DNA of 64,000 bases from Opitutus sp. ER46. Its GTDB lineage: Bacteria; Verrucomicrobiota; Verrucomicrobiia; Opitutales; Opitutaceae. This document shows positions 15,378 through 62,262 of this stretch, piece by piece. The stretch covers positions 62,001 through 126,000 of the forward strand of contig NZ_QAYX01000016.1 in assembly GCF_003054705.1 (NCBI RefSeq), in the 5' to 3' direction. Every line of letters starts with the position of its first letter. Position 1 is the stretch's first letter. The position numbers were made by a program, and so were the translations under genes. The notes under the pieces were generated by a model. It had not been told where the DNA came from. It searched no databases and saw only the letters and a program-made list of their open reading frames with translations.

Positions 15378-15402
15378 TCGGTTTTCGCGTCGCGAAAACC
15401 GA
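15378..15402. repeat. Perfect 12-bp-arm palindrome (TTTTCGCG/CGCGAAAA)
   Basis: Arms TCGGTTTTCGCG and CGCGAAAACCGA surround a single T. A related hairpin, TTGTTTTCGCC/GGCGAAAACAA with a CGT loop, sits at 15541-15565. The two flank the triple-repeat element at 15427-15519. Confidence 0.75.
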
Positions 15403-15426
15403 GGACGTCGAGGGGACGATGGCTGC

Positions 15427-15519
15427 AATTATAATTAGCTCAATCGCAACGAGTAGCGTGATAATGTCCAGATACTCGGGAATAATGTCCGGATACTCCT
15501 GCGATAATGTCCGGATACT
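15427..15519 (+). repeat. Two-copy element: AATTATAA box plus three ATAATGTCCGGATACT repeats (copy 1)
   Basis: An AATTATAATT palindrome starts at 15427. The first 16-nt repeat starts 34 nt later at 15461 (one mismatch, CCAGATACT), with exact copies at 15482 and 15504. The period of 21-22 nt puts the copies on one face of the helix. The same layout with the same 34-nt spacing occurs at 61273-61365. No transposase gene is adjacent. Confidence 0.85.
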
Positions 15520-15799
15520 TTCGCGTCGTGTCCGGCGCTCTTGTTTTCGCCCGTGGCGAAAACAAAGGCGCGCTGCAGCTGCTCGTCATGGGACGGTTCC
15601 TCGACGTGGCGGTGCGCGACATCGTGATCGCGCTGAGCGGCCCGCTCGTGCTGGCGCGGCTGACGTCGCTGGTGTTCGATCGCGGGCACGCAGCGGCGAA
15701 TCGGCACGACTGAGAATTCGCGTCGCGGATGAAGTCTCGACGCACCGCAGGTGCGAGGGAGGGGCGAGAGGCGCGTGAGGCGAAACGCGCCGCCGCCGG

Positions 15800-61153: not shown

Positions 61154-61272
61154 CGAATCGGACGCGCCGGCGCGTCGTGAAACTCCGACCTTTGGGTATG
61201 TGCGGAGCCGGCGGTCGAGCATTGTGGCCTCGAGCGCCTCGGTCGCGTCGACGACGAGGGTACGAGGGCAGT

Positions 61273-61365
61273 AATTATAACTGCCCGAGATTCGGACGGT
61301 TACGGGATAATGTCCGGATACTTGGAATAATGTCCGGATACTCTCGGGAATAATGTCCGGATACT
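61273..61365 (+). repeat. Two-copy element: AATTATAA box plus three ATAATGTCCGGATACT repeats (copy 2)
   Basis: AATTATAA starts at 61273 within a GGCAGT/ACTGCC hairpin. Exact 16-nt repeats start at 61307, 61327 and 61350. The box-to-first-repeat distance is 34 nt, as in copy 1 at 15427. Orientation is also the same. The gap up to the RibD-like gene has nothing else. Confidence 0.85.
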
Positions 61366-62163: not shown

Positions 62164-62262
62164 CCGGTACGTGGCCCCGGCCGGGGCCACGTACCGGAGT
62201 GAAAGTGAGAGTGAAAGTGAAAGTGAGAGTGGGACGGAGTGAGGGTGAAAGTGGGACGGAGC
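62164..62262. repeat. 34-nt perfect palindrome followed by CGGAGTGA repeat tract
   Basis: 62164-62197 is a perfect loop-less palindrome with arms CCGGTACGTGGCCCCGG and CCGGGGCCACGTACCGG. Its last bases (CCGG) are shared with the start of a CGGAGTGAAAGTGAGAGTGA tract that runs to 62262. The rest of the gap up to 62430 shows nothing recognisable. Confidence 0.85.

Follow-up and report, generated by a model that had tools for sequence, protein, structure and literature searches.

A stretch of 64,000 nucleotides from the genome of Opitutus sp. ER46 (C16:62001-126000; hereinafter, the window) contains two copies of an array of short direct repeats preceded by a box, which raises the question of what such arrays do and whether they serve the host or only their own spread. 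An earlier note on this DNA described a two-copy element with a 34-nt spacing between the box and three 16-nt repeats and suggested a protein-binding array, namely, either the solo end of an IS21-type element or a site for a regulator or a nucleoid protein. Both copies are present at the positions given there, 15427-15519 and 61273-61365 of the window. Six matches to the 16-mers with at most three mismatches are found in the window, all on the plus strand, with starts at 15461, 15482 and 15504 (copy 1) and 61307, 61327 and 61350 (copy 2), against a chance expectation of 0.04 and with none of 100 shuffles reaching six. The repeat period of 20-23 nt holds (steps of 21 and 22 nt in copy 1, and of 20 and 23 nt in copy 2), and so does the 34-nt spacing, measured start to start from AATTATAA to the first repeat (R1); each copy contains three repeats, except that the first repeat of copy 1 reads ATAATGTCCAGATACT, with one mismatch. 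The two copies include the following features.

15381-15399, unstranded: copy 1, left palindrome GTTTTCG..CGAAAAC, here in a minority of copies only
15396-15425, plus strand: copy 1, GA-rich left block, consensus about CCnAGGAnnnnGAGGGnACGAGGGCTG (60-copy profile)
15426-15434, plus strand: copy 1, box CAATTATAA (profile)
15435-15460, plus strand: copy 1, 26-nt spacer of variable sequence and fixed length (profile)
15461-15476, plus strand: copy 1, repeat R1, ATAATGTCCAGATACT (16-mer search)
15482-15497, plus strand: copy 1, repeat R2 (16-mer search)
15504-15519, plus strand: copy 1, repeat R3 (16-mer search)
15543-15563, unstranded: copy 1, right palindrome GTTTTCG..CGAAAAC (palindrome search)
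61242-61271, plus strand: copy 2, GA-rich left block (profile)
61272-61280, plus strand: copy 2, box TAATTATAA, first base changed from C to T (alignment)
61281-61306, plus strand: copy 2, 26-nt spacer (alignment)
61307-61322, plus strand: copy 2, repeat R1, with G at position 10 as in 7 of 87 copies (16-mer search)
61327-61342, plus strand: copy 2, repeat R2 (16-mer search)
61350-61365, plus strand: copy 2, repeat R3 (16-mer search)

Copy number, architecture and conservation

The whole-genome pattern search that the earlier note had proposed shows that the element, far from being limited to two copies, is present in about 87 whole copies. In the ER46 genome (5,714,369 bases, 5.71 Mb, in 25 contigs), the exact 16-mers occur 96 times (52 forward, 44 reverse) and their reversed-pattern control not at all; with up to three mismatches allowed, there are 247 occurrences, compared to four for the control. 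From 80 fetched stretches and the window, 87 elements were defined, and a sequence-only covariance model derived from 60 copies was used for the element search. The model scores of whole or split elements ranged from 38 to 106 bits, with two or three elements split in pieces; one further hit that was not such a piece (C14:62424, 13.2 bits, E 0.31) was left out of the count. No graded series of decayed copies was seen in this model search, in which 150 of 697 first-look candidates were scored, so that decayed copies could be missed.

The element spans about 115 bases and consists, in this order, of the GA-rich left block of approximately 30 nt, the box CAATTATWA, the 26-nt spacer and one to four repeats of the form ATAATGTCC(A/G)GATACT. 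The dinucleotide after CAATTAT is AA in 43, TA in 30 and AT in 14 of the 87 copies. At up to three mismatches, three repeats are found in 57 elements and two in 28, with a single element each carrying one and four. The tenth repeat position is occupied by A in R1 (80/87), and by G in R2 (62/86) and R3 (50/58).

The conservation of the element is distributed unevenly. R1 departs from the consensus ATAATGTCCAGATACT at 15 of 1392 positions, with 72 of the 87 copies perfect, and CAATTAT is exact in 84 of the 87, whereas the spacers of the 78 copies with a 35-nt distance between box and R1 differ, on average, at 13.26 of 22 positions per pair. The distances are constrained, too. The box-to-R1 distance is 35 nt in these 78 copies, 33 nt in eight and 36 nt in one. 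The 145 distances between successive repeats, again at up to three mismatches, are close to whole helical turns: 140 are within 19-23 nt (19 nt in 1, 20 in 16, 21 in 84, 22 in 26 and 23 in 13), with none in the ranges of 12-18 and 24-31 nt, four of 32 nt and one of 11 nt. From box to R2, the distance is 56 nt in 57 of 84 copies (two duplicates dropped), 55 nt in 15, 57 nt in six, 54 nt in two and 67 nt, that is, one turn more than 56 nt, in four; of the eight copies with an R1 displaced by 2 nt, six retain the 56-nt distance. Indeed, the box-R1 and R1-R2 distances compensate for each other (r = -0.69, n = 80, 0 of 10,000 permutations), as do R1-R2 and R2-R3 (r = -0.36, n = 56, p = 0.0037); this compensation may, in part, reflect a single inherited subfamily because six of the eight copies of the 33-nt class carry a 23-nt step.

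The combination of near-invariant blocks, a spacer that is free in sequence and fixed in length, near-whole-turn distances and distance compensation suggests a protein complex that would read the element as one unit, with selection acting at nearly every copy. To the extent that such patterns are indicative of binding, they favor the reading of the array as a protein-binding one.

Context, spacing and spread in the genome

When gene context was examined (genes were called with a custom codon-usage script, not with a standard gene caller), 34 of the 87 elements were found between convergent genes, 41 between codirectional ones and eight between divergent ones, and four overlapped a predicted ORF; thus, 75 of the 83 copies not overlapping a predicted ORF are in convergent or codirectional locations. 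Among the gaps in these stretches that contain no element and are at least 115 nt long, 15 are convergent, 70 codirectional and 41 divergent, so that convergent regions are enriched (odds ratio 5.1, p = 2e-6) and divergent regions are depleted (0.22, p = 1e-4) in elements; an earlier count of 67 copies pointed in the same direction. The codirectional elements are split almost evenly, with 21 oriented in the gene direction and 20 against it, and element strand shows no link to GC skew (48 of 87 positive). This lack of orientation preference, together with the avoidance of divergent regions, argues against promoters and makes a site acting in cis on the neighboring genes unlikely. Genes always next to solo copies, another possibility envisaged in the earlier note, were not detected: among 454 predicted proteins, no gene family recurs next to most of the elements, the largest similarity group covering 8 of 81 sources.

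The elements are spaced more evenly than expected by chance. For 70 gaps on 14 contigs (the tandem duplicate was dropped and the contig of the window was excluded), the coefficient of variation is 0.667 compared to 0.950 for random placement, under a null that puts sites anywhere rather than only between genes, and none of 5000 simulations gave a value as low. Gaps shorter than 5 kb are lacking (5.7 expected; the smallest is 7.4 kb), there are 11 gaps shorter than 20 kb (20.1 expected), six longer than 100 kb (12.6 expected) and four longer than 150 kb (5.1 expected), and 53 of the 70 measure 20-100 kb. Neighbors less than 12.5 kb apart share orientation in seven of eight cases, the tandem duplicate included. 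The even spacing and the location of the elements, taken together, suggest a role on the scale of the chromosome.

At least some copies have spread as discrete units. Nine of 3003 spacer pairs differ at no more than 5 of 26 positions, compared to a mean of 0.13 and a maximum of 2 in 500 column-shuffled controls; five of these nine pairs are on different contigs, each differing at 5 of the 26 spacer positions. The clearest case is that of C23:49467 and C23:61216, 11.7 kb apart, in which the spacers are identical and homology extends from -72 to +56 relative to the start of R1 (about 129 bp), with unrelated DNA outside. The same pattern of shared element and unshared flanks, with more differences, is seen for C23:30848 and for the pair C24:311244/322597; C20:314592 and C25:880968 are alike from about -95, including a left stem-loop, to at least +69. 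In these copies, the similarity extends over spacer and blocks and ends at the flanks, which means that the element is being, or has been, copied as a discrete unit some 130 bp long. A different case is the pair C22:368730/370557, which is part of a 1.8-kb tandem duplication (C22:365700-373500) that includes the element, a gene for a Y1 transposase-like protein and further DNA, with one element copy that has a different left block at the junction. Copies less than 100 kb apart are slightly more alike than expected at random (14.0 vs 14.7 mismatches, p = 0.02). At the edge of the element at C23:61216, the DNA immediately after R3 resembles the 3' portion of a tRNA (TTTCTAA..GGGTTCGAGCCC) and is possibly a tRNA remnant; ARAGORN reports no tRNA to the right of this element.

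The family appears to be confined to ER46. The exact 16-mer is absent from 56 relatives, including 26 congeners, and, with stricter filters, the model gives one partial hit in each of six of these relatives (best E 0.036). Among 252 genomes of the family searched at up to one mismatch, 219 hits are in ER46 itself and the reversed control gives three; 19 other genomes contain one hit each, or two in one case, and no array was seen in any of the 251. The isolated near-matches (for example, ATAATGTCCGGGTCCT or ATAATGTCCGGATCCT), including L062:1107 on the minus strand and the single hits in relatives, look like coding sequence, possibly for a secretion ATPase motif, rather than elements.

The fetched congeners are distant (best protein hits of 81-88% and median identities of 35-51%, for 21, 17 and 3 proteins), and synteny was judged at two loci, where the divergence from the relatives is too great for an empty site to be delimited cleanly. 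At C21:462936, two relatives, G018 and G023, do not contain the element in the corresponding region; at C24:651165, the counterpart gap in G018 is 86 nt long compared to 1285 nt in ER46, where there is also a further predicted ORF. The lack of the element at these syntenic places implies that these copies were either acquired by this lineage or have disappeared from the others. Counts of 14-mers revealed no analogous arrays in 400 kb of G008, 240 kb of G018 and 160 kb of G023, the positive-control stretches being biased in that they were chosen for the element.

What the element might be

The explanation that we consider the best, with a probability of roughly 0.45, is that the element serves an oligomeric protein as a composite site, is dispersed and maintained by selection, and plays a role on the chromosome scale. 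Under this scenario, one or two sequence-specific proteins would assemble on each copy as a single rigid complex, with a first set of contacts to the GA-rich block and CAATTATWA and a second set made by subunits lined up along one face of the helix over R1-R2(-R3). These subunits would be held at a fixed distance from the box across a spacer of nearly indifferent sequence. A unit of about 130 bp would have spread through the genome, after which the blocks would have been kept by selection while the spacer drifted, yielding some 87 sites in either orientation, mainly behind genes. The role would be chromosome-wide and independent of the neighbors: conceivably, domain organization, marking for segregation or the cell cycle, or insulation of transcription units that face each other. 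The copies, their architecture, the pattern of conservation, the context, the even spacing and the spread as a unit are observed directly; protein binding, the oligomeric nature of the complex and the chromosomal role are what we infer. Among the options raised in the earlier note, that of a nucleoid protein fits these observations best, and that of a regulator of the adjacent genes appears unlikely.

The principal alternative, which we regard as a serious one while giving it clearly less than an even chance, is a non-autonomous mobile family (a MITE or a REPIN/REP-like element) without a host role, copied in trans by an enzyme that we did not recognize. The blocks then would be the binding sites of this enzyme, the 3' intergenic bias would reflect tolerance, and the even spacing would result from target immunity. 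The confinement of the family to one genome, the lack of the element in the corresponding region of two relatives for one locus and of one relative for the other, the copying of a ~129-bp unit between C23:49467 and C23:61216 and the related pairs on different contigs all fit this possibility, and REPs have been reported with a similar context bias (PMC3733652). The same facts count against a host role, inasmuch as no other genome searched contains the site and the relatives lack it at both loci judged; spread as a unit would be possible for a mobile family without such a role, and target immunity could space the copies. Known sites that organize the chromosome of the host are usually kept across related species.

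Palindromes next to some copies also are compatible with mobility. The only two GTTTTCG..CGAAAAC palindromes in the window (0.00 expected) both flank copy 1. In the fetched DNA, 30 looser TTTTC..GAAAA matches are located within 150 nt of the 87 elements and 15 farther away; some of these palindromes, in which the 5' arm is T-rich, adjoin copies at constant offsets: six end 26-28 nt to the left of the box (copy 1 of the window among them), and six start 3 nt and four 8-9 nt to the right of the last repeat. In 15 of the 87 copies, a strong stem-loop, of one of several sequences, is located within 50 nt to the right of the last repeat, whereas two control offsets gave 1 of 87 each; on the left side, no excess was detected (1/87 at a score of at least 24; p = 0.12). 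Given that the stem-loops are absent from most copies, they are accessories. We also considered these stem-loops as intrinsic terminators and rejected this interpretation because the most frequent stem-loops have a T-rich 5' arm and an A-rich 3' arm whichever strand is read, the reverse of a terminator. A general palindrome family, (C)AGTTTTCGC..GCGAAAACT(G), is present in the ER46 genome also far from the elements; its places include the flanks of copy 1 in the window, L044 and L051, and 8 of the 15 far matches are in one 4.5-kb stretch (L009).

Several observations speak against the purely mobile alternative. Most spacers look unrelated whereas the blocks are near-invariant, a contrast that neutral decay after insertion does not give; target immunity could produce the even spacing but not easily this contrast, and no graded decay was seen among the candidates scored. 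Of the 13 matches to Y1 transposases in the genome, one is between two element copies, which could favor mobility, but it sits within the tandem duplication described above, and 7 of the other 12 Y1 loci, which we read, contain no element repeats. Terminal inverted repeats and target duplications are not evident by eye. The spread of some copies as discrete units does support a mobile nature of the element as such, independently of any IS21 origin. A dispersing unit that was put to use by the host would join the mobile and the selected features. An elaboration along these lines, namely, a lineage-specific chromosome architecture system that spreads its own evenly spaced, two-part sites, which selection then maintains at almost all of the about 87 copies, with an oligomeric protein bound in helical register, segments of about 20-100 kb and sites placed in transcription-poor ground behind genes, has an appreciable probability, although clearly less than an even chance.

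Under another explanation, the elements would be transcription factor operator arrays that control the neighboring genes, or else small RNAs would start at the box. The phased repeats are operator-like, and the A that follows CAATTAT in 57 of 87 copies makes an intact box read TATAAT on its minus strand; however, T follows in the other 30, divergent regions are avoided, the codirectional orientations are split 21 to 20 and no neighboring gene family recurs, so we consider a regulon improbable.

Less probable still is a structured RNA that would act in 3' untranslated regions; the 3' intergenic bias might speak for it, but elements occur in both orientations relative to genes. RNAalifold applied to 16 copies predicted pairs exclusively within or adjacent to the repeats; 1 of 13 pairs showed a two-sided change, and neither this analysis nor a fixed-pair check of the spacer revealed fixed covarying pairs. 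The spacer does fold better than column-shuffled controls (z = -2.3 for RNA and -5.1 for DNA, 75 copies), compared to z = +1.7 for the flank and -0.1 for the left block, but no fixed pair explains this signal; the signal between R1 and R2 (z = -5.8) is expected from register shifts. Mutual information was discarded as evidence of structure because it is dominated by R2/R3 register shifts. Rfam yielded no gathering-score match in seven loci, and two stretches of the window gave sub-threshold matches only.

Finally, that the copies are solo ends of an IS21-type element, an option in the earlier note given that IS21 ends carry several transposase sites, is hardly credible because the genome contains a single rve-domain match, more than 30 kb from the nearest element, and no gene family recurs beside the sites. 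Judging from its translation, the rve protein may be IS3-like.

Relationship to known systems

The closest parallels to the distribution of the element are found among REP, BIME and REPIN sequences. According to PMC3733652, REPs are high-copy, short and extragenic, are located mostly between convergent or unidirectional genes, are dispersed as units and, in E. coli, are targets of gyrase. The ER46 element shares with them the high copy number, the extragenic position in convergent or unidirectional settings (the 75 of 83 copies noted above) and the dispersal as a unit. However, REPs are described in the same paper as palindromes of 20-40 bp, most of them in a GTAG or a CGTC super-family, whereas the core of the ER46 element consists of a non-palindromic box, direct repeats and a free spacer, with palindromes flanking a minority of copies only; no invariant tetranucleotide of the GTAG/CGTC kind was found in the 60-copy profile from the left side to R1 or in the alignment to R3.

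With respect to the possible role, the parallel would be to matS/MatP, Noc and SlmA, the sites of which number tens per chromosome and are read by a protein in trans, independently of the neighboring gene. The dispersed, even sites described here, without preference for orientation or gene family, are consistent with such a system and do not prove it. The known matS, Noc and SlmA sites are single short palindromes, in contrast to the two-part site of about 115 bp with phased repeats in ER46, to which no known organizer could be tied. Sequence-specific chromosome organizers are treated in PMC4726725 and PMC3116907.

The ER46 repeats also recall iterons in being direct repeats about two turns apart. 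Iteron arrays belong to plasmid replication initiators. The box read on the opposite strand (ATAATTGCAG) is, by eye, faintly similar to the repeat (ATAATGTCCAG). By contrast, there are some 87 dispersed copies here, with one to four repeats each and no recurring gene, and the one copy that was searched (window:61240-61370) has no match among plasmids (PLSDB) or phages. Transposons of the IS21, Tn7 and Mu types have multiple sites for the transposase lined up close to one end, and the row of sites in the ER46 element is similar in that respect, as is the possibility that target immunity spaces the copies; the single rve match is, however, away from the elements, and we recognized no second end or larger mobile unit. 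To our knowledge, few families of bacterial sites combine high copy number, a long rigid two-part architecture and even spacing. If one protein binds these sites, it would be a new bacterial chromosome organizer or insulator, and the system would make it possible to study how about 87 such sites were acquired and are retained by the genome of a single lineage. Should the family be purely mobile, it would be an unusual one, with intact blocks and copies that stay apart from one another.

Neither the two 16-mers nor their reverse complements occur in the literature searched, and a strict pair of repeats is found in neither the GTDB genome contigs nor IMG/VR. A looser pair retrieves five stretches from GTDB and none from IMG/VR. 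Two of the five, L190 and L193 from gammaproteobacterial MAGs, contain arrays of TGTCCAGATAC with an 11-nt period in front of a gene for a 475-aa protein, which in L193 matches Fic and in L190 is near-identical by eye; the model scores these two arrays at 26.1 and 19.9 bits, with E values of 1.7e-7 and 1.5e-5 that refer to 34 kb preselected by pattern. Thus, a loose likeness to the element exists outside ER46, without the box or the left block. Searches of the ER46 genome with the L193 protein, whole or as its N-terminal 82 residues, gave no match, a negative that carries little weight as the search included no positive control. The ACGGGATTGTCCAGATACTGTCCAGATA arrays at L193:2341-2404 and L190:6137-6188 resemble the R1 region beyond the letters searched. 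The looser pattern also retrieved tandem GTCCGGATACGTCCC-like units in Phocaeicola abscessus (L192:6766-7000), which apparently are unrelated. Among the relatives, other dispersed words were seen, namely, GGATCGATCTCTCA/CTCTCAACTCTCAG and GTTGAAAGTTGAAA at 5-8 places in 400 kb of G008 (C3:1-400000), and TCGCCCCGCCTACA at 6 places in 160 kb of G023 (C13:1-160000). In the window itself, a simple repeat of GAAAGTGAGAGT-like units is located at 62200-62260, beyond the 5' end of a RibD-like gene.
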